From Deltaproteobacteria bacterium (GTDB taxonomy: Bacteria; CG2-30-53-67): 34,893 bases of DNA. Position 1 is the first letter of the stretch; every line of letters starts with the position of its first letter. The DNA lies in NCBI GenBank assembly GCA_013151235.1, contig JAADIO010000001.1, positions 1-34,893 of the forward strand, given 5' to 3'. Below the pieces are notes generated by a model. That model was not told where the DNA came from. It did not search any database and saw nothing but the letters and a program-made list of their open reading frames with translations. The translations under genes and the position numbers were made by a program. This document shows, in pieces, positions 19,519 through 31,629 of the stretch.

Positions 19519-22002
19519 ATGAAAAGAAGAAAATTTATCAAGCTTTTAGGCGGTTCCACCACCTTCGCCCTGGCGTATGGATACGGTCTGTTTCCTCCCC
19601 CGAAAGGATTCGGGAAGGCGGAAGCACTCAAGATAGGGGAAGAGGATCTGTCTCTGCGTCCCCCTGAAGAGAAATGGGTTCCCACCGTCTGCCGACAATG
19701 TCAGGGCGGTTGCGGCATCCTGGTCAGGGTCATCGGCAACCGGGCCGTAAAGATCGACGGCAATCCCCTCCACCCGATCAACCGGGGAAGGCTCTGCGCC
19801 CGGGGGCAGTCCGGTCTGCAGTTCCTCTATGACCCGGATCGGATTCGGGGTCCCCTCATCCGGAAGGGTGAACGGGGAGAAGACCGATGGGAATCCGTCT
19901 CCTGGGACAAGGCACTGACAACCCTGCAGAAAAAATTAAAAATTTTGAGGAACAAGAAACGGCCGGAGTCTCTCGTGATGCTTTCCGGCATTCGGCAGGG
20001 ACTGGCAGGAAAAGCAACTTCCCGTTTCATGGAAGCTTACGGTTCTCCCAACCTGATTACCAGCCGGCCGGATCTCTCCAGGGGTTTCATCCCGGCGGTT
20101 GAACTCATGCAGGGGGCCGGGGCCGGCATCACCTATGATATCGAAAATGCAAACTACATCCTCTCCTTCAACAGCGGGCTCCTCGAAGATCATTGGTCTC
20201 CCGTGCAGATTTACCAGGCCTATGGAAAATTCCGAAGAGAACGAAAGGGGGTTCGCGGCAAACTGGTCCAGGTGGAGCCAAGACTCTCCGTCACCGCGGC
20301 CAAGGCCGATCAGTGGATCCCGGTCAAGCCCGGAACGGAAGGGGTTCTGGCCATGGGGATCGCGTCCGTCCTGATCATCGAAAGACGCTACGATGAATCC
20401 TTTCTCCGGAACAGGACCTTCGGCTTTGAGGACTGGGCGGATTCGGAAGGAACGATCCATCCGGGATTCAAAACCCTCGTGATCCAGGAATATCCACTGG
20501 ATCAGGTAGAAAAAACAACGGGGGTTCCCAGGGATACGATCGTCCGGATCGCCCGTGAATTTGCCGATCACGGTCCGGCGCTCGCCATCGGGAACGACGC
20601 CTTCGGCGTGGGCAATCCGGGGCTTTATAACCGAATGGCGATCCACGCCCTGAATGCCCTGGCCGGCAACATCCAGAAGGACGGCGGCATCCGTTCCAAT
20701 GCGAAGCAACCGGATCTCTCCTTGCCTCCACAGACCCCGGACGCCGTCGCCCGGCAGGGGCTTTCAAAACCGAGGATCGACGGCGCCGGTACCGGTCGTG
20801 ATTCCCTGACCGCCGATCTTCCGGAAAATATCCCGGATCGAATCCTGGAGCATACACCCTACCCCGTTGAGATTCTCCTTCTTCATCACGCAAACGCCCT
20901 CTACGACAGCACGGAACCGGACAAACTACAGGCCGCTCTTAAAGAGGTCCCCTTCATCGCGAGCTTCTCTTCCTTCCTGGATGAGACCACCCGATACGCC
21001 GATCTGATCCTGCCCGACTCCATCTACCTGGAAAAATGGGATCTGGATGCGACCTACACGCTCAAGGGGAATCCGGTGGTCAACCTGAGCCGCCCCGTCC
21101 TTCCACCCGTATTCAACACGCGCGACACCGTCGAAGTTCTTGCGGCTCTCTCCAGGAAGCTGGGTGGGAGTCCCGCCGAGGCCTTTCCCGCCTCCCATCC
21201 GGAAGGGATCATTCAGGCCGCCGTCAGGAAGCTGCATCGTACCGGTCAGGGCGAACCTTTCGGAGCCCCCTTGGAAGAACTCTGGACAAAATTACTGGAA
21301 CAGAGTGGATGGAAGGTCCGGAACAGGGAGACTTTCGACAACTTCTGGTCAAAACTTCGGGAACGGGGCGGCTGGTGGGACCCCGTCTACTATCCCTATG
21401 AATGGCGCCGGGTCTTCAGTACGCCCTCCGGCCGTTTTGAATTCTTCAGTCTGACGGTCAAGAAGTATCTCGAAGGCCTCGGGGCCACGGAAAGGGACCT
21501 TGCCCTGAATGCAATGCCGCAGACAGCAAACATGAAACGTGCCGATGCCGGCGCGCTACCCCACGGAAATACCGAAAAACCGGGGAGAAACGAAGAACGC
21601 TACCCTTTCGAGATCCATCCCTATGTCATCCCGATCCTCAGCCATCTGCATCATACCAATGAACCCTGGCTGCAGGACATTACCGGCTTCCATCTCTATC
21701 AGAGCTGGCATACCTGGGTGGAAATCAACCCGAAGGATGCGCACGAACAGGGCATCGGGAACGGGGAGTGGGTCACCGTAGAGTCTTCCCGGGGAAAGAT
21801 CCGGGCCCGGGCACGCCTCTTTGAAGGAGTAATGCCCCACGTCATCAATCTCCCCGTGGGCCTGGGCCACGAAGCAGGCGGACGGTGGACGGCGGGGATC
21901 GGAGAAAATGTCCCCCGGCTCCTGCAAACAAAACGGGAACCGGTAACGGGAAAAACTCGATACGCCCGGTCCCGTGCACGGCTGATCCGTAACCCGACCT
22001 GA
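19519..22002 (+). CDS. Molybdopterin-oxidoreductase-like (MopB) subunit of a Qrc/ACIII-like complex
   Basis: An 827-residue protein with a Tat signal (MKRRKFIKLLGG, twin Arg at 3-4), so it is exported folded to the periplasm. A [4Fe-4S] site is formed by C58, C61, C65 and C93. The MopB fold continues with GSPN (175-178) and ends in a molybdopterin-binding domain with HTWVEINPKDAHEQGI and INLPVGLGH. In catalytic relatives a Cys, Ser or Asp that binds Mo lies about eight residues after GSPN. Here that position reads SRPDLSRG, with Leu at the expected place, so a Mo-free structural role as in QrcB or ActB is plausible. An Asp one residue earlier leaves some doubt. It starts 21 bp after the cytochrome gene. 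Confidence 0.9.
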   Translation: MKRRKFIKLLGGSTTFALAYGYGLFPPPKGFGKAEALKIGEEDLSLRPPEEKWVPTVCRQCQGGCGILVRVIGNRAVKIDGNPLHPINRGRLCARGQSGLQFLYDPDRIRGPLIRKGERGEDRWESVSWDKALTTLQKKLKILRNKKRPESLVMLSGIRQGLAGKATSRFMEAYGSPNLITSRPDLSRGFIPAVELMQGAGAGITYDIENANYILSFNSGLLEDHWSPVQIYQAYGKFRRERKGVRGKLVQVEPRLSVTAAKADQWIPVKPGTEGVLAMGIASVLIIERRYDESFLRNRTFGFEDWADSEGTIHPGFKTLVIQEYPLDQVEKTTGVPRDTIVRIAREFADHGPALAIGNDAFGVGNPGLYNRMAIHALNALAGNIQKDGGIRSNAKQPDLSLPPQTPDAVARQGLSKPRIDGAGTGRDSLTADLPENIPDRILEHTPYPVEILLLHHANALYDSTEPDKLQAALKEVPFIASFSSFLDETTRYADLILPDSIYLEKWDLDATYTLKGNPVVNLSRPVLPPVFNTRDTVEVLAALSRKLGGSPAEAFPASHPEGIIQAAVRKLHRTGQGEPFGAPLEELWTKLLEQSGWKVRNRETFDNFWSKLRERGGWWDPVYYPYEWRRVFSTPSGRFEFFSLTVKKYLEGLGATERDLALNAMPQTANMKRADAGALPHGNTEKPGRNEERYPFEIHPYVIPILSHLHHTNEPWLQDITGFHLYQSWHTWVEINPKDAHEQGIGNGEWVTVESSRGKIRARARLFEGVMPHVINLPVGLGHEAGGRWTAGIGENVPRLLQTKREPVTGKTRYARSRARLIRNPT

Positions 22003-22033
22003 AAGAACAGTGTAATGGAGGAAGGAGAAGAAG

Positions 22034-22717
22034 ATGCCGAAATGGGGCATGGTCATTGACCTGGACAAATGTACGGCCTGTCAGGCCTGTGTCGTCGCCT
22101 GTCAGGCGGAGAATAATATCCCGAATGCAAACCCGGAAACCGCTGCCAAAGGACGCAACATCCACTGGATGGAGATGATCCCCTTTATCGAGGGAGAATT
22201 TCCCCACACCAAAATGCGGCTCCTCCCCCTCCCCTGCATGCACTGTGAGAACGCCCCCTGCACCAAGGTCTGCCCGGTCGGAGCCACCCAGATCAGTTCG
22301 GAAGGTATTGTAGGACAGATTTACCCCCGGTGCATCGGATGCCGCTACTGCACCACCGCCTGCCCTTATACCGTAAAATCTTTCAACTGGTTCAACCCGA
22401 CCTGGCCGAAAGGGATGGAGCGGTATCTCAACCCCGATGTCTCGGTTCGTTACGATGGTGTTGTGGAGAAATGTACCTTCTGCTCCCATCGTCTGCAGAA
22501 GGCCCGGGATCAGGCCCGATTTGAGGGAAGAGAACTGGGGCCGGATGATTACATTCCCGCCTGTGTACAGACCTGCCCGGCCGAGGCGATGTATTTCGGT
22601 GATCTCGACAACCCCAAATCAGTCGTCTCCATTCTTGCAAGAAGTAAACGTTCTTTCCGCCTGATGGAAGACTTGGGGACCCGTCCAAAAGTCATCTATT
22701 TAAGCGAAGGAGTCTGA
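22034..22717 (+). CDS. Periplasmic ferredoxin subunit with four [4Fe-4S] clusters
   Basis: A 227-residue iron-sulfur protein of the PsrB/QrcC/NrfC type. Four cysteine groups are seen: CTACQACVVAC, CMHCENAPCTKVC, CIGCRYCTTAC, and CTFC together with CVQTC. It has no signal peptide of its own; such subunits are usually exported with the Tat-bearing MopB partner. A long purine-rich GGAGGAAGGAG site precedes the ATG, which begins 31 bp after mopB. Its role would be to wire electrons between the MopB subunit, the cytochromes and the NrfD-type membrane subunit. Confidence 0.93.
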   Translation: MPKWGMVIDLDKCTACQACVVACQAENNIPNANPETAAKGRNIHWMEMIPFIEGEFPHTKMRLLPLPCMHCENAPCTKVCPVGATQISSEGIVGQIYPRCIGCRYCTTACPYTVKSFNWFNPTWPKGMERYLNPDVSVRYDGVVEKCTFCSHRLQKARDQARFEGRELGPDDYIPACVQTCPAEAMYFGDLDNPKSVVSILARSKRSFRLMEDLGTRPKVIYLSEGV

Positions 22718-22718
22718 A

Positions 22719-24113
22719 ATGGATCTGGCAAAGGTCTTGGAACAGGATGAAGAGATCCTCCTGAAACCGATTCAGGAATCCCACAGGAACTTTTACATTA
22801 CGGTTGTGCTCCTCTCCGCCGTCGTGGCCTGGTCCTTGGTCGCCTATTTCCACCAGTTGCGCAACGGCCTGGGCGTCACGGGGTTGAACCGGCCTGTCTA
22901 CTGGGGGTTCTATATCACGAACTTTGTTTTCTTTATCGGGATCAGCCATGCAGGGACCCTGATCTCCGCCATTCTCCGGATTGCACGGGCGGAGTGGCGC
23001 CGTGCGATCACACGTTCCGCCGAGGTAATTACCGTCATGGTCATCTTCTTCGGCGTCGCCAGCATTCTGATGGACCTGGGTCGCCCCGACCGGGTCCTCT
23101 ACATCATCAAGTTCGGACGTTTTCAATCCCCTCTTCTCTGGGACGTCACCAGTATCACGATCTATCTGACCGGCAGCACCGTTTATCTCTATCTTCCCCT
23201 GATCCCCGACATCGCCCTGATGCGGGACAAAGTGAAAAAACGGAAATGGTTTTACTCCGTCCTTGCCCTCGGCTGGAGGGGGACACCCAAGCAGTGGCAC
23301 CGCCTGGAGAAGGCCATTGCCGTTATGGCTATTCTCGTCATTCCCGTTGCCGTCTCCGTCCATACCGTGGTCTCCTACGTCTTTGGGATGACCGTCCAGC
23401 CGATGTGGCATTCCGCGATCTTCGGCCCTTACTTCGTCGTCGGTGCAATCTATTCCGGCATTGCCGCTCTGATTGTCGCCATGGCCTTAATCCGATGGGT
23501 CTATCACCTGGAGAACTATCTCAAAGATATTCACTTCCAGAATCTGGGAATTCTCCTTTTCGTCATGACCCTGCTCTGGACTTATTTCACCTTCTGCGAG
23601 TATCTGACAACCTTCTATGGAGCCGAACCTGCACACATGCAGGTCTTCTGGTCGAAGTTCACCGGGGAATACCGGCATGAGTTCTGGGGAATGGTTGTTT
23701 GCTGTTTCGTGATCCCCGTCATCTTCCTGAGCAACCGGAAGATGCGGACCATGACGGGAATGGTCTTCGCCTCCCTCGCGATTACCGTCGGAATGTGGCT
23801 GGAACGGTTCATTATCGTCGTGCCGACCCTGGCCAACCCCCGACTCCCCTACGAACGGGGAATCTACCACCCCAGTTGGGTCGAACTCTCTCTGCTCGCC
23901 GGCTGTTTTGCGGCCTTTATTCTCTGCTATGTACTCTTTACCAAGTTCTTTCCCATCGTCTCCGTCTGGGAAATTCAGGAAGGACGCAAGCATGCCGTAT
24001 CGGAAGTGGCGGCCCGTGTCAGGACCTATCTTCCGGGCAACCCGACCCCGGACAAAACGGATGCCGGCACCCCCGCCATCCCCAAGGTGGAACCCTTGAT
24101 CGGGGATTCATGA
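22719..24113 (+). CDS. NrfD/PsrC-type quinone-interacting membrane subunit (QrcD/ActC-like)
   Basis: A 464-residue integral membrane protein with about ten hydrophobic segments and short polar ends. SHAGTLISAILRI and GRPDRVLYIIKFGRFQ followed by SPLLWDV are close to the ActC/QrcD form of the NrfD family, which binds menaquinol on the periplasmic side. The ATG is 1 bp after the ferredoxin stop and has AAGGAG upstream, so the two are tightly coupled. Its own stop overlaps an ATG at 24110. In this operon it would link the quinone pool with the iron-sulfur and heme chain. Whether it conserves energy by proton movement cannot be read from the sequence. Confidence 0.92.
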   Translation: MDLAKVLEQDEEILLKPIQESHRNFYITVVLLSAVVAWSLVAYFHQLRNGLGVTGLNRPVYWGFYITNFVFFIGISHAGTLISAILRIARAEWRRAITRSAEVITVMVIFFGVASILMDLGRPDRVLYIIKFGRFQSPLLWDVTSITIYLTGSTVYLYLPLIPDIALMRDKVKKRKWFYSVLALGWRGTPKQWHRLEKAIAVMAILVIPVAVSVHTVVSYVFGMTVQPMWHSAIFGPYFVVGAIYSGIAALIVAMALIRWVYHLENYLKDIHFQNLGILLFVMTLLWTYFTFCEYLTTFYGAEPAHMQVFWSKFTGEYRHEFWGMVVCCFVIPVIFLSNRKMRTMTGMVFASLAITVGMWLERFIIVVPTLANPRLPYERGIYHPSWVELSLLAGCFAAFILCYVLFTKFFPIVSVWEIQEGRKHAVSEVAARVRTYLPGNPTPDKTDAGTPAIPKVEPLIGDS

Positions 24114-25474: not shown

Positions 25475-28126
25475 TCACCTCGCTTGATGACAGACGTTGC
25501 ATTCCGCACTGACCGTATAGCGGTAAGGAGACCCCCAGGTGACCGATGTCTGGTTCTGATGGCAGGCAACGTTGGTGCAGGTTTTCGTAGCAGGATCGAA
25601 GGAAGCGGTACTTAGATCCTGGGGGGTCTTCAGGGTCACCGGATCCGGCGTAAACACCACGTCTTTTGTGCCGTTGACATGCTTGGCCTTGTTGAATATA
25701 TCGACATTCTCGAAGGTCGTCTCCCCCTGTGCATCCTGGGTCCATGGAGCCTCATCCCGTACCGTATCGTAATGACAGGTCCGACACTGAAGTGGGCCGA
25801 ATCCCATATTCCAGGCATGAAGGCTGACGTCACCGTTTTGATCACGCCATCCGTGACTGTCACCGGCACCGGCGGAATCGACGGACGCATCATTGATGAT
25901 CGGGAAACCGTGACAGCCGTTGCAGCCGAACTGATCCACCCCCCATTGCGGGGTGCGGTAACGGCGGGTCTGAACAACGAGACTCTGCCAGGTCGGATCG
26001 TAGATCAATGGATAGATGATATTCCCGTCAACAACGGTCGGTTCCGGCACGGCGTCCGTCGTCGTCGTCACGGTTTCGCTGTGACAATAGACATTGCTGC
26101 AGGTCCCTTTCGTGTAGGTCAGGGGGATCCGGCCTCCATCATCGACAAAGACCTGAGTCCCCGGCGTGTAGGTCGCAGTCTTCGGGTTCTTCGCCTTGAG
26201 AGAGCCCGCCGGTGCATTCGGGCTATAAAGTTCAATCTCCGCCGAACCTCCGCCACTGTTTGCGACACCGTCCATATGTTTCAGGATATCCATGGGGTGG
26301 CAGTTCCCGCAGTTCATCAGGTAGACCGATGACTGGGAGATCACATCCTGTGCGATCTTCGTGCTTCCGTAAACCGCCTGGTCCACGCTCCCCCCGAAAT
26401 GAATCAGGTGGGTCCCCGTCTTCGGCGGAACCTCGTGGCAGGTGCCGCACTGAGGCTTCATTCCCTTGTCATGGGGATGACAGGCCATACAGTTCGCCCC
26501 GTCGTTATGCCCGACATAGTTCCCGTTAGAATCGAGGTCACCCGGCGCCTGTCCGTCATTGCGGTGATGATTGGTCCGGGTATGACAGATCTCGCAGATG
26601 TTCTCATCATGGGGCGCCCCGTCGGCGAAGGAGTCGGTCCCCGATGAAGCAGTGAGCGTGACCGTTCCCGTGAGGGTTTGGCCCGTCACGGTATTGTCAT
26701 AGGAAATGTTCCGCCGGAGCAGTTTCCCGTAGGAGGTGCCGAAAGCCCGGTTCTGCTCCTGGGTATGGGGATCGTGACAGGTCACACAATTCTTTGTGCC
26801 CATGTCCCAATTACCATACTTCGTCCCCACGACCTTCGAGGAATGGGTCTTGACAACCGGAGCAGAGCCAAAACCGTAGGGGAAAGCGTCGGGATAGGCC
26901 GCCTTCATAACGCCATTCAACGGGTCGGTGTCGTCCGGGTCGGAATGGCACCGCTGACACTTGTAACGCTGGTCATTGAAGAAATTGTTCCGGTCGTGGC
27001 ACTTCCCGCAGAGGAGTGCCGCATTATCGGAACGGATCGTGTCGTCGGGATTCTTCAACGGGGCGATATGAGGTGGATCGTACGGATGACAGGAGATCCC
27101 GTTCCGGTCGGGGGTATTGCACCCGACCTTGGCGATGCCGCCCAGAAGATCCGCTCCGTGGCACTTCGTACAATCCTGCGCGTCGGCAAGATAGCTCGGG
27201 CCGTGACTCCCCCCCTTGTCGGCAACATTGACCCATCCTTCCGGATGTCCGGTCTTGACCTCGGGTTTGAATCCTCCGTCATGGGTATGGCAATCGGTAC
27301 AGGGCCGGTCGGCGCCATGTTCAATCGGTTTACCATCGATGTCCAGGTCACCCGGCCCGCTCCCATCGTTGCGATGATGAATCGTCCGGGTATGACAAAC
27401 CTCGCAGATCGATTTCCCCGACGGGACCGACTCCCCCGTTAACGGTGTATCGGTCAGATCGTTCACCTGGACCTCACCGCCGACGGTTTCGCCGGTCACA
27501 TTGTTTGTATAGGTGATATCCTCGCGGAGGAGTTTCCCGAAATGCGTTCCCTTTGCCCGGTCCTGTTCCTGGGAATGGGGGTTATGACAGGTCACACAGT
27601 CGATGTGCCAGTTGCCATATTCCGTCCCGACATTCTCCGAAGAGTGACTCTCCACGACCGGGGCCGTACCGAACCCGTAAGGAAACGGTTCAGGATAGGC
27701 TTCCTTCATGACCCCGTTCAAGGGATCGCTGTGATCAGACGGATCGGAATGGCATCGCTGACACTTGAACCGCTGCTGATTGAAGAAGTCCTTCAGGTCA
27801 TGGCACTTCCCGCAGAGGAGCCTCGCATTGTCGGAACGGACCGTACCGTCGGAATTGATCAGGGTCTCAAGATGAGGCGGGTCGTTGGGATGGCAGGTAA
27901 TCCCGTTGCGGCTCGCCGTACTGCAGCTCACCTTGGCAAGCCCCCCCGTCAGTGCATCCCCGTGACATTTCGTGCATTGATCCGGGTCCTTTTCATAATG
28001 CTTTCCATGGACCTGCACCCAGTTCGAAGGGTGATCCGCACCTTCGGGACTGAAGACGCTCCCCGAATTCGGGCTACTACAGGCGGACATAAAAAGGAAC
28101 AAACAGAGGAGAGCGAGTCGCTTCAT
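25475..28126 (-). CDS. Outer-surface multiheme lipoprotein cytochrome with 17 CxxCH sites (up to 21 heme-like motifs)
   Basis: An 883-residue lipoprotein with a short signal peptide and lipobox MSAC (Cys16). I count 17 CxxCH motifs, two CxxxxCH motifs (CSNVYCH, CTNVACH) of the Geobacter CxxxxCH-CxxCH type, and two C-x9-CH motifs (CSTASRNGITCH, CNTPDRNGISCH). The first 560 residues are a tandem duplication of about 268 residues, each half with six CxxCH sites in the same order. The last third has five CxxCH and both CxxxxCH sites. ATG 28126 overlaps the upstream stop as ATGA; ATG 28135 adds three residues. It is last in the operon barrel, pentaheme lipoprotein, multiheme lipoprotein, so it is probably the outer-face cytochrome of a porin-cytochrome conduit for extracellular electron acceptors. 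Confidence 0.9.
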   Translation of the reverse strand: MKRLALLCLFLFMSACSSPNSGSVFSPEGADHPSNWVQVHGKHYEKDPDQCTKCHGDALTGGLAKVSCSTASRNGITCHPNDPPHLETLINSDGTVRSDNARLLCGKCHDLKDFFNQQRFKCQRCHSDPSDHSDPLNGVMKEAYPEPFPYGFGTAPVVESHSSENVGTEYGNWHIDCVTCHNPHSQEQDRAKGTHFGKLLREDITYTNNVTGETVGGEVQVNDLTDTPLTGESVPSGKSICEVCHTRTIHHRNDGSGPGDLDIDGKPIEHGADRPCTDCHTHDGGFKPEVKTGHPEGWVNVADKGGSHGPSYLADAQDCTKCHGADLLGGIAKVGCNTPDRNGISCHPYDPPHIAPLKNPDDTIRSDNAALLCGKCHDRNNFFNDQRYKCQRCHSDPDDTDPLNGVMKAAYPDAFPYGFGSAPVVKTHSSKVVGTKYGNWDMGTKNCVTCHDPHTQEQNRAFGTSYGKLLRRNISYDNTVTGQTLTGTVTLTASSGTDSFADGAPHDENICEICHTRTNHHRNDGQAPGDLDSNGNYVGHNDGANCMACHPHDKGMKPQCGTCHEVPPKTGTHLIHFGGSVDQAVYGSTKIAQDVISQSSVYLMNCGNCHPMDILKHMDGVANSGGGSAEIELYSPNAPAGSLKAKNPKTATYTPGTQVFVDDGGRIPLTYTKGTCSNVYCHSETVTTTTDAVPEPTVVDGNIIYPLIYDPTWQSLVVQTRRYRTPQWGVDQFGCNGCHGFPIINDASVDSAGAGDSHGWRDQNGDVSLHAWNMGFGPLQCRTCHYDTVRDEAPWTQDAQGETTFENVDIFNKAKHVNGTKDVVFTPDPVTLKTPQDLSTASFDPATKTCTNVACHQNQTSVTWGSPYRYTVSAECNVCHQAR
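26480..27976 (-). repeat. Tandem duplication inside the multiheme cytochrome gene
   Basis: Two copies (about 27281-27976 and 26480-27172) encode the same series CTKCH, C-x9-CH, CGKCH, CQRCH, CVTCH, CEVCH/CEICH, CTDCH/CMACH. Blocks such as HRNDG-PGDLD and YGFG-APVV recur at a period of about 268 residues. The copies are diverged at many positions, so the duplication is old. Confidence 0.8.
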
Positions 28127-28563
28127 TTGTGGCATGCCTTACACCTCTCGTTGTTGTTGCGGCCATGACATTTGAGACAGGGCGCCGGGTTAATCCGGCC
28201 GTCGATCCGGTGCTGTGTCAGGTAATCCCCCCGATGAGGGAGGAAACGATTCGGTTTATCCTTGAACTTGTCGCTCGGTTTGATTTCTTCCTTGTTGGCA
28301 TGGCAATCCTCGCAGAAGGATTCCTTGTGACAAAGGTCGCAGATCCGCTTCTGCTGCACGGCGTAGTATTTATGCCGCATGTCCCAATCGGAGGTGTGAC
28401 TGAAAGAAGCCCGAAAATCCTCATGACATTCGCTGCACATCGGCGGTTGCGTAAACTGTATCGGGTGCTCCCTGAGGATACTGTCCATGGTTGCACAGGC
28501 ATAAAGTCCTCCCGAAAAGAGGACCATAAAAATGAGCGTCAATTTCAGGGTCGTCCGGTTCAT
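28123..28563 (-). CDS. Pentaheme lipoprotein cytochrome of a porin-cytochrome conduit
   Basis: A 146-residue lipoprotein cytochrome. From ATG 28563 the signal peptide ends in the lipobox LYAC (Cys23). Five CxxCH sites follow: CSECH, CDLCH, CEDCH, CLKCH and CKACH. The frame extends to 28644, but ATG 28563 has AAAGGAG upstream, begins the signal peptide and overlaps the barrel-gene stop as ATGA. Its stop likewise overlaps the next start. The position between a beta-barrel and a large surface cytochrome suggests a periplasmic-side or barrel-plugging electron carrier, the role of OmaB/MtrA, although it is smaller and has fewer hemes than those. Confidence 0.87.
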   Translation of the reverse strand: MNRTTLKLTLIFMVLFSGGLYACATMDSILREHPIQFTQPPMCSECHEDFRASFSHTSDWDMRHKYYAVQQKRICDLCHKESFCEDCHANKEEIKPSDKFKDKPNRFLPHRGDYLTQHRIDGRINPAPCLKCHGRNNNERCKACHK

Positions 28564-29957
28564 TCCGTCTTCTCCTTTGTTGAATCGTCCGCCCCGGAAT
28601 CCGCGGAACCGTTGTCCTTTTTCCATGGGAAGGGAAACGTCCATGCCGGCAGATGAATATCCGACAATGCAAGCTTTGGCATTTTCATCTTCGGCATCTT
28701 CACCGGGGAGATATCGAAATTATGGATATACTTCACAAAGAGGCGGAGATCCGTGGAATAGGTCGGATTATCCCCATATTCGATATTCGCGGAGACGCGG
28801 CTGTTCTCTCCCAAGGCGTATCCACCGACGACCGAGAAAGAGAAAGCGTTGGAGTCACCGTTGATCGAGGCATCATAGTGGACGTTGAAAAGATCGAGGG
28901 TGACATCCGCCTTGTCGTATTTCTTGAAAGCGTAGACACGGAATTCATAGTAACGCCGGGCATCGCTCTGCCCGTCCATCCTGTAAAGAGAACAGCCGCC
29001 CCCCATTTCATCCTCGGACTGCCAAGTCAGTCCCGCCCCATAGTAGTTCGCATTGTCGGTCACACTGTAGTTGTAGTTTCGCAGGAGCGCAGTCAAAACC
29101 AGGTCGTCCCGGAGAGTGTATTCCCCCCGGAGACCGAGTTCCAGCATCTTCTCGTCGGGATCGAGGACACCGAGGCCCATATCGAAGACCCCGGTGGTAT
29201 GGGTGTCGACATCGGCAAAATAGTTCTTGTAATCGACGTCATCGAACTCCCCGATAAGCCGGAGTTCATCGAGAGGCACATAAGTGACCGTGTAGGAATG
29301 CTCCATCCATCCCGTGGTCTCCCCGTTGTAGGTCGACCGGCCGAAGACTTCAACTTTCTCCATGGGATGGACATGAAGATCGAGTCCCTCCTCCGTACGG
29401 AAATCGCTCCCGTTGTTTCGCTCCTTCAGGTAGGAAATTCCCACTTGGTACAGCCCCGGCTGCCGCCGGTAGACGCGGGCCCCGAATATCCTGTCGGAGC
29501 TTCGCGTATCGAAATCGGTCTCCACGGGGACCCCCCCGTAAGCCGCCGCGCCGAAACCGTGGAGAAAATCACTCCGAGCATAAAGACCGTCAACGCTTTC
29601 CGAAGCCACCCCTTCGTAGACCGGGACACGGCCAAAGTCAACAACGGTATTCGCCGTATCCCGGTGCAAGTCGACGTAGGCATACTGCAGGTCGAGATTC
29701 GCATTCCGCTCATCGAAACTCTTCTGATTGTTCAGGTCACGTCGGGCCCAGCCGCCGAAGTGGAAGGAATACTCATCTTTCGCGAAATCATTGAGGGAAA
29801 AGTCGAGATATTCAAAGAGAGGGAGATAGGTGTCACCATCGTAAGACTCCCGGCCCTGAAAATAGGTCCTGGAACTGCCGGTCATGTCAACGGCGAACAA
29901 CGGCGCCGGCACACAGAACAAAACCATCAGCAGCACGATCGTGCCTTCTTTGATCAT
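28560..29957 (-). CDS. Outer-membrane beta-barrel of a porin-cytochrome conduit
   Basis: A 465-residue exported protein with a signal peptide ending APLFA (residue 22). Most of the mature chain alternates polar and hydrophobic/aromatic residues, with repeated strand-turn patterns rich in Tyr, Asp, Asn and Gly, as in outer-membrane porins. Strands appear to end near residue 415. The rest is an unusual tail rich in Met, Pro and Lys (PVKMPKMKMPKLALSD) followed by a charged end. AAGGAGG precedes the ATG. The stop overlaps the start of the pentaheme lipoprotein gene (ATGA). No heme motif is present. By context it would hold the cytochrome wire across the outer membrane. I do not recognise it as a specific named porin. 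Confidence 0.8.
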   Translation of the reverse strand: MIKEGTIVLLMVLFCVPAPLFAVDMTGSSRTYFQGRESYDGDTYLPLFEYLDFSLNDFAKDEYSFHFGGWARRDLNNQKSFDERNANLDLQYAYVDLHRDTANTVVDFGRVPVYEGVASESVDGLYARSDFLHGFGAAAYGGVPVETDFDTRSSDRIFGARVYRRQPGLYQVGISYLKERNNGSDFRTEEGLDLHVHPMEKVEVFGRSTYNGETTGWMEHSYTVTYVPLDELRLIGEFDDVDYKNYFADVDTHTTGVFDMGLGVLDPDEKMLELGLRGEYTLRDDLVLTALLRNYNYSVTDNANYYGAGLTWQSEDEMGGGCSLYRMDGQSDARRYYEFRVYAFKKYDKADVTLDLFNVHYDASINGDSNAFSFSVVGGYALGENSRVSANIEYGDNPTYSTDLRLFVKYIHNFDISPVKMPKMKMPKLALSDIHLPAWTFPFPWKKDNGSADSGADDSTKEKTE

Positions 29958-30064: not shown

Positions 30065-30211
30065 CGAAGGGAAAATGGCAAACAGGCTGAGCCTACCCCC
30101 CCCTCCGTTGCGTGGGTCAACATACGTCATCAGAGAAAGGATTGCAAGGAAAATTTCAGGACGTATCCAGTCACGACAACAAAGATTCCGGCTGTGGCTT
30201 TTTTTTTCGGT

Positions 30212-30240
30212 TTGACACCGCTTTTGGTTAATGCTACATT
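30212..30240 (+). promoter_or_regulatory. Promoter of the HesB-like selenoprotein gene
   Basis: A perfect TTGACA (30212-30217) and TACATT (30235-30240) are separated by 17 bp. The predicted start is about 43 nt before the ATG at 30290, which has AAAGGAG upstream. Confidence 0.65.
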
Positions 30241-30289
30241 TTGCCACATGGTGAATTATGATTAAAGAACGAATCAAAGGAGATGTTCC

Positions 30290-30577
30290 ATGTTGTCCCT
30301 GACCGAAAAATGCATTGAGAAATTCAAGGAGATTCTGGAGGAGAGGAATACCGCCGACCAGGGGATCCGACTCTTCACCGCCCCCGGGGGCTGAGGCCCC
30401 TCTCTGGCGATGGATATTGCCAAGGACGCCCGTGACGGCGACCAAACTGTACCCTTCGGAGACCTAAAGGTCTTTCTGACCCCCGAGGCCAATGTCATGC
30501 TCATGAACTCCACCATTGATTTTTCAGAGACCCTCGGTTTTTCAATTACCGGAACACCGAAAAATTCCTGTTGCTGA
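30290..30577 (+). CDS. HesB/IscA-family selenoprotein (UGA-encoded selenocysteine at residue 35)
   Basis: A 95-residue protein of the HesB/IscA A-type iron-sulfur carrier family, readable only if the in-frame TGA at 30392-30394 encodes selenocysteine. Up to codon 34 it reads MLSLTEKCIEKFKEILEE and ends RLFTAPGG. After the TGA it continues GPSLAMDIAKDARDGD, then VFLTPEANVMLMNSTIDF, and ends ITGTPKNSCC. The TGA sits where IscA has its first cluster-binding Cys, and the C-terminal Cys pair matches the second site. Right after the TGA, GGCGAT and ATTGCC pair around a GGAT loop (30406-30421); the loop begins 17 nt after the TGA and starts with G, as bacterial SECIS elements do. AAAGGAG and a good promoter precede it. 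HesB-like selenoproteins are a known family; SelA/B/C/D lie outside this window. Confidence 0.85.
30406..30421 (+). promoter_or_regulatory. Bacterial SECIS-like hairpin
   Basis: A six-pair stem (GGCGAT with ATTGCC, one G-U) encloses the loop GGAT. It lies inside the coding region just downstream of the TGA, at the spacing bacterial SelB requires, and has G at the first loop positions. Confidence 0.75.
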
Positions 30578-30616
30578 CAATAAAATTTGACGGTGATAAC
30601 AAAGTGATCGTCTTTG

Positions 30617-30856
30617 ATGCAGCGTGGACGGCGCCTCCTCTGCATCTTCTCGCCCCCCCATTGAGGACGCCGGACAGCCGATGACATGATCAAAGGCGGC
30701 GACCCGGCGCCCCCCCCAATGGTCCACAAAGCCCTCGAATGGGTCCGCCGTTCCATGGAAAAGACCGGCCGTTACCGTGAAGATCGGAAACAGTTACGGA
30801 AGATTCTTAAATTTTCCCCTGAGATTCTGTGTCATGCGGACCGATCCAATGATTAA
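30617..30856 (+). pseudogene. Probable remnant or frameshifted small gene, unidentified
   Basis: The stretch after the selenoprotein gene has coding-like codon use but no intact frame. From 30686 a 56-codon frame reads MIKGGDPAPPPMVHKALEWV and continues with a charged helix, RRSMEKTGRYREDRK, ending at 30856. Upstream in the same frame there is a TGA at 30662 and an ATG at 30617 without a ribosome binding site. A second frame near 30582-30683 contains FDGDNKVIVFDAAW. Runs of seven and eight C (30653-30659 and near 30711-30718) could hide frameshifts. I cannot name a family. Confidence 0.3.
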
Positions 30857-30900: not shown

Positions 30901-31629
30901 TTAACCGAGTCTCGAAAGTGACGGGAAAAGGTTCATGATCCAGCCGGAGAGGATCCCGAGACGGTTGGTCAGGATCAGGACCCCGATGATCATCAGAAGC
31001 CCCCCCGACGCGATCTCCACAACCTTGAAGTGTCTTTTCACACGTTCAAAAAAGTTCAGGAACCAACCGGTGGCCAGGCCGGTCAACAGGAAAGGAAGGC
31101 CCAGCCCCAAGGCGTAGACCGACAGAAGCAGCACCCCGAAGGAAACACTCTCCTGCGTCCCCGCCATCGAGAGGATCCCCGCCAGGATCGGGCCGATACA
31201 GGGAGTCCATCCGAAGGCGAAGGCGATCCCCATGAGAAAGGCCTGGAGATAGGAACTTTTCCCGGTTTTCAGATGGAGCCGTTTTTCGTAATTCAAAAAC
31301 CCGATCCGGTAAATCCCCATCGTGTGAAGGCCGAACACAATGAGAAGAAGTCCGGCCGCCTTGCGCAGAAGCCCCATCTGACTGCCGATAAGGCGGCCGA
31401 AGAAGGTCGCCGATGCCCCCAGGAGGACAAAGACAAGGGAAAATCCGGCCACAAAGAGCAGCGAGCTTAAAAAGACACCGGAGAGAATCGGGGCGGATTT
31501 CTCCTTCTCCACTAGTTTCTCCACGGAGACGCCTGAGATAAAAGAGATGTAGGCCGGAACGAGAGGAAGGACGCAGGGGGAAACAAAGGAGAGCAACCCG
31601 CCCAAGAAAGCGAAGAGTACCTGATCCAC
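30901..31629 (-). CDS. ccdA: CcdA/DsbD-type thiol-disulfide membrane transporter
   Basis: A 242-residue inner-membrane protein with six predicted helices. The conserved cysteines are in SFVSPCVLPLVPAYISF (helix 1) and FGWTPCIGPILAGI (helix 4), the hallmark of CcdA/DsbD cores that carry reducing equivalents from cytoplasmic thioredoxin to the periplasm. In bacteria rich in c-type cytochromes this keeps apocytochrome CxxCH thiols reduced for heme attachment, which fits this neighbourhood. The start is GTG 31629 with AGGAGG 7 nt upstream. It follows the lipoprotein gene by 48 bp and probably belongs to the ubiD-lipoprotein-ccdA operon. Confidence 0.9.
   Translation of the reverse strand: MDQVLFAFLGGLLSFVSPCVLPLVPAYISFISGVSVEKLVEKEKSAPILSGVFLSSLLFVAGFSLVFVLLGASATFFGRLIGSQMGLLRKAAGLLLIVFGLHTMGIYRIGFLNYEKRLHLKTGKSSYLQAFLMGIAFAFGWTPCIGPILAGILSMAGTQESVSFGVLLLSVYALGLGLPFLLTGLATGWFLNFFERVKRHFKVVEIASGGLLMIIGVLILTNRLGILSGWIMNLFPSLSRLG

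Follow-up and report, generated by a model that had tools for sequence, protein, structure and literature searches.

The window, a stretch of 34,893 nucleotides from a deltaproteobacterium (contig JAADIO010000001.1), very probably codes for a bona fide selenoprotein with the A-type fold at positions 30290-30577 of the forward strand, in which selenocysteine (Sec) 35 and the cysteines 94 and 95 would form a probable A-type site. Judged by sequence comparison, the gene belongs to a distinct and so far un-modelled branch of a selenoprotein family that is itself well known.

Translation of the gene yields 95 residues plus stop, reading MLSLTEKCIEKFKEILEERNTADQGIRLFTAPGG-U-GPSLAMDIAKDARDGDQTVPFGDLKVFLTPEANVMLMNSTIDFSETLGFSITGTPKNSCC, where U is residue 35 and corresponds to the TGA codon at 30392-30394. 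A preliminary description of the window had claimed that an IscA-family frame is continuous only through this TGA, and both the coordinates and the TGA proved to be exact. It had also placed the TGA at the first cluster-ligand Cys, and indeed Sec35 is aligned with the invariant first ligand Cys of A-type proteins. Sec35 and the neighboring pair Cys94-Cys95 (30569-30574) would make up the putative ligand set of the window protein, as opposed to the C...CxC of A-type carriers; the C-terminal pair is part of an SC(x)C motif common to the branch and is the counterpart of the IscA ligand cysteines, by analogy with which it is likely to act as a ligand. With the TGA read as Sec or Cys, the protein matches PF01521 with 30.2 bits (Pfam cut-off 26.3), and this model is matched by all of the 35 aligned members at E ≤ 0.001. 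The predicted structure (mean pLDDT 90) shows the IscA fold, with E. coli IscA (1s98, 1r94) among the best PDB matches found by Foldseek and SufA (2d2a) as a further match. The true stop of the gene is a second TGA at 30575-30577, since the frame of many relatives is closed at this very position by TAA or TAG; a second Sec at this C-terminal codon (SCC-TGA-CAA-TAA) was rejected for the same reason. Upstream of the gene we found the promoter and the ribosome-binding site that had been announced, namely a sigma-70-like TTGACA-17-TACATT at 30212-30240 on the same strand, which is a consensus match only (10 of 12 positions, with 0.6 such matches expected by chance in the region), and AAAGGAG at 30276-30282, read from the sequence 7 nt before the ATG.

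The putative SECIS apical hairpin is located at 30405-30422 (forward strand), with its arms at 30405-30411 and 30416-30422 and the loop GGAT at 30412-30415. The stem with a GGAT loop downstream of the TGA, as previously described, could be recovered, but its geometry had to be corrected: the stem comprises 7 pairs instead of six and starts 10 nt after the UGA, and the distance of 17 nt is that of the start of the loop. Taken by itself, the window hairpin is unremarkable, as it is matched by 9-12% of synonymous recodings, and the fold z-score of the single window sequence is only −0.75; Rfam did not return a match over 30200-30700. Since the single-sequence fold and the recoding tests are not significant on their own, the proof of the SECIS is comparative. 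An equally spaced stem with 6 or more pairs is present in 27 of 27 Sec genes of the branch, which is named PSLAMD here after its conserved motif, compared to 1/5 Cys genes of the branch and 0/20 other Cys genes. Across 26 distinct branch sequences, 99.5% of the cells of the stem are paired, versus 15-46% in slid registers, and two stem pairs are changed on both sides. In three relatives a G-C pair is replaced by A-U, so that pairing is kept even though both changes alter the protein (Ala to Thr and Ala to Val), and in the window a U-A pair is replaced by G-U via two synonymous changes (GCT to GCG and ATA to ATT). The Ile codon within the stem is ATA at 23 of 27 sites and is replaced by GTA at 3 more, with a background of about 28%, and the apical loop of the branch is GGAT or GGAC, with G in the loop. 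On the basis of this covariation, we regard the hairpin as a real SECIS across the PSLAMD branch.

The source genome (2.62 Mb, 99% complete) carries the respective decoding machinery. A tRNA-Sec gene (selC, ARAGORN anticodon tca) is present, SelB scored 422.6 bits (cut-off 242), and SelD is encoded at positions 1480-2430 of locus L017 on contig C43 with an in-frame TGA in its catalytic motif GAGUACK, which makes selD a second selenoprotein gene of this genome. Within 14 kb around selB, no selA was seen. UGA codon 35 would accordingly be decoded by tRNA-Sec and SelB, directed by the 7-bp hairpin 10 nt downstream.

In our genome-contig collection, only one near relative was found, a Nitrospirota gene (L028) with 55% identity and a TGA at the same codon as the window gene. 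A search of 396 genomes of this phylum then returned a large family, and 36 of the matches listed, L028 included, have a TGA in frame at the equivalent position. The TGA-bearing homologues have intact 3' parts, ribosome-binding sites and the covarying hairpin, and a relative in which a real stop is followed by a decayed 3' part, which the preliminary description had named as evidence against Sec, was not found among the homologues. With the Sec machinery, the TGA-bearing HesB-like relatives and the covarying hairpin, the initial assignment as a HesB/IscA-like selenoprotein with a bacterial SECIS is strongly supported. Viral contigs and phages contained no relatives, and five genomes of the genus or family of the window organism gave no match to the gene. 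This absence and the identity of 53-55% to the Nitrospirota copies suggest a horizontal origin of the window gene, which is only suggested because the tree leaves the point at which the window row joins open.

The tree (62 rows, 107 columns), in which many further forks were left open, separates the Nitrospirota proteins by a long and fully supported edge into the PSLAMD branch, which includes the window protein, and a PSYG branch, and requires at least 4 changes between Sec and Cys. The ligand motif is G-C-C-G-P-S in the Cys members and G-U-x-P-S in those with Sec, with U-S-T-S as an alternative Sec form in the PSYG branch. As the ligand loop of the Sec forms is one residue shorter, Sec stands where the Cys relatives have Cys-Cys; a Cys two residues after Sec is kept, among the Sec forms, only in a small UGCGPSYG group. 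This shorter loop could mean a changed binding preference. Several variants were encountered along the way. Two genomes harbor a Sec and a Cys copy of the same protein close together, each within one ars cluster. Four loci represent a second Sec variant of the hemB-associated clade, GG(G)UGCGPSYG, with a near-palindromic coding stem (TTCCTAT-GGA-ATAGGAA) and hemB following in 3 of 4, and six Nitrospirota loci encode the Sec variant GGUSTSYG directly upstream of hemB, with a less clear hairpin.

The two clades also differ in their genomic neighborhoods. Within 5 kb of the PSLAMD genes, ars genes occur in 16 of 30 loci (ArsC in 10, ACR3 in 7, ArsA in 5, ArsD in 5 and ArsR in 4) and a SufC homologue in 9 of 30, 7 of which have an SmsB/SufBD-like gene as well, and every one of these ars and suf neighbors is located on the same strand; 10 of the 30 loci, including the window, have neither ars genes nor the pair of SufC and SmsB-like genes. 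In the PSYG sister clade, hemB adjoins in 26 of 29 loci and none of the 29 contains ars genes, whereas the 30 PSLAMD genes never adjoin hemB. The difference in ars neighbors between the branch and its sister clade (Fisher p ~2e-6) is to be read as descriptive only, since the loci are related and were chosen by score. The neighbors were named by NCBIfam as ACR3 (459 bits), ArsD (121 bits), ArsR family, ArsC-type (169 bits, just below the cut-off), SufC (166 bits, below the cut-off) and SmsB/SufBD, which was the best match but far below its cut-off; ArsA and HemB were named from sequence alone. Cytochrome genes were not found as recurrent neighbors in the relatives. The earlier proposal of a tuning of iron-sulfur transfer by Sec in an organism rich in cytochromes is not supported in this form; the recurrent neighbors are genes of arsenic detoxification and SufC/SmsB-like genes.

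The window gene itself is solitary. A beta-barrel-like gene (28560-29957) diverges from it on one side, a CcdA-like gene (30901-31629) converges on it from the other, and no ars genes adjoin it. In the window genome, neither ACR3 nor the SufB/D core (PF01458) was found, and the neighborhood evidence consequently comes from other phyla. No other A-type carrier was detected in this genome, a result that is based on the NF038090 and A1 searches, because the PF01521 search of the genome returned nothing and missed even the window gene. In light of the solitary gene and the absence of ACR3, of the SufB/D core and of any other detected A-type protein, handling of iron or Fe-S clusters is more likely in the window organism than a dedicated role in arsenic metabolism. 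The protein is the only A-type carrier detected in this organism and is encoded by a single gene with its own putative promoter. Elsewhere in the window, a molybdopterin oxidoreductase, an Fe-S protein and an NrfD-like membrane protein (19519-24113) make up a Qrc/Phs/Arr-like complex, the Fe-S protein being QrcC-like (305 bits, cut-off 400), and a large multihaem cytochrome, a small cytochrome and the 465-aa beta-barrel-like protein (25475-29957, reverse strand) represent a possible porin-cytochrome cluster.

Within the A-type site, Sec35 would stand in the place of the first ligand. With Cys94/Cys95 it probably makes up a selenolate/thiolate site at which iron, an Fe-S cluster or some thiophilic metal(loid) would be held transiently, as can be expected from the IscA fold. 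Because genes of the branch lie either with SufC/SmsB-like genes or in ars operons, the most likely role, which we propose with middling confidence, would be to carry Fe-S clusters or to rebuild them when the cell faces metal(loid) or redox stress. Direct binding of As(III) by the protein appears possible, if rather doubtful. A role mainly as an As(III)/metalloid chaperone or sink of ars operons, which hands As(III) to ArsA or ACR3 or scavenges it, with Sec replacing the vicinal Cys-Cys as soft ligand and Fe-S chemistry being merely ancestral, is a tentative alternative to which we assign a clearly lower probability. It would account for the same-strand ars genes in more than half of the branch loci as compared to none in the sister clade, and for the vicinal CC of the Cys members, which is also found in ArsD. 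Moreover, when a Cys member was compared with plasmids, its best matches included HesB-like genes of Bacillota. In 4 of 4 cases inspected (Priestia, Cytobacillus, Niallia and Alicyclobacillus) these genes are part of an ars cluster or border on one, and their products share GCCGP; some of these genes are annotated as "adhesin", and they represent a recurrent ars component without a name. A HesB-like gene is also reported as orf7 of the ars1 operon of Bacillus CDB3 (PMC4562236) and as hesB in an ars operon of Exiguobacterium (PMC8779447), and the passages concerned assign no function to them; in the open-access literature, we found no report of a Sec-containing HesB protein in an ars operon. 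However, the fold and the conserved residues are those of an Fe-S carrier, the SufC/SmsB-like neighbors point to Fe-S clusters, the vicinal pair is lost in the Sec forms, and the window gene is solitary in a genome without a detectable ACR3.

It is unlikely that the gene simply belongs to the HesB-like selenoproteins already described, with nothing distinct about it. HesB-like proteins are a long-known selenoprotein family (PMC1794560, PMC5029168) and among the commoner ones in bacteria (PMC5029168); one has been labelled with 75Se in Methanococcus maripaludis (PMC11097638), a model with the motif UxGP exists (TIGR01911, PMC13188914), and their function is regarded as unclear (PMC11097638). 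The window protein belongs to the same superfamily and has Sec at the homologous ligand position, and the statement that such selenoproteins had already been described is correct as far as the family is concerned. On the other hand, the protein reached only 13.3 bits with TIGR01911 (curated cut-off 66.35) and 36.3 bits with NF038090 (IscA_HesB_Se, curated cut-off 85), stayed below every NCBIfam cut-off in a scan of the library, has one residue fewer between Sec and the conserved Pro-Ser and falls into a separate branch with its own neighbors. Even less credible, to the point of being negligible, is a pseudogene in which the TGA is a true stop that ends a 34-aa remnant followed by residual similarity, since the single in-frame TGA and the absence of the gene from the five same-family genomes, which could be taken in its favor, are set against the 36 listed homologues that share the TGA and the presence of selB, selC and selD.

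What is new is thus a Sec branch with its own ligand loop and neighbors, and what was already known is HesB-like selenoproteins as such. The branch provides this family with a repeated genomic setting, among genes for arsenic detoxification and for Fe-S assembly of the SufC/SmsB-like kind, and displays an unusual exchange of Cys-Cys for Sec; both are directly testable. Current curated models miss dozens of the Nitrospirota Sec genes, and gene callers are expected to truncate them. As a speculative extension, to which we give a rather low probability, the UxPSLAMD Sec proteins might be a so far overlooked part of the defence of bacteria against arsenic and metalloids. One Sec would then replace the vicinal Cys-Cys of the ars-operon HesB proteins and either bind As(III) or shield Fe-S assembly from it, and the window copy would have been captured and re-used as the only A-type carrier of its genome.

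Compared to known systems, the window protein resembles IscA, SufA and ErpA in its fold (TM scores of 0.74-0.78 against IscA/SufA of E. coli), the conserved first ligand position and the C-terminal cysteines, but has Sec in place of Cys, a shortened ligand loop and a short CC tail, and its gene lacks an isc or suf context. Among the Sec-related NCBIfam models, NF038090 is the best match with a nearly full-length alignment, yet its score is so far below the cut-off that the model does not capture the branch. The proteins described by TIGR01911 (HesB_rel_seleno) share the A-type fold superfamily, the small size and the lone Sec in the place of the first ligand Cys; they differ in that their UxGP is replaced by U-x-P-S-L-A-M-D (UGP/URP/USP) in the window branch, with a loop one residue shorter, and in that the relatives of the window gene have ars and SufC/SmsB-like neighbors. 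The HesB-like proteins of Bacillota ars clusters, including CDB3 ars1 orf7, are likewise A-type-like, but they carry Cys-Cys instead of Sec, are 20-30% identical to the window protein and have "PQ/PK" in place of "PSLAMD".
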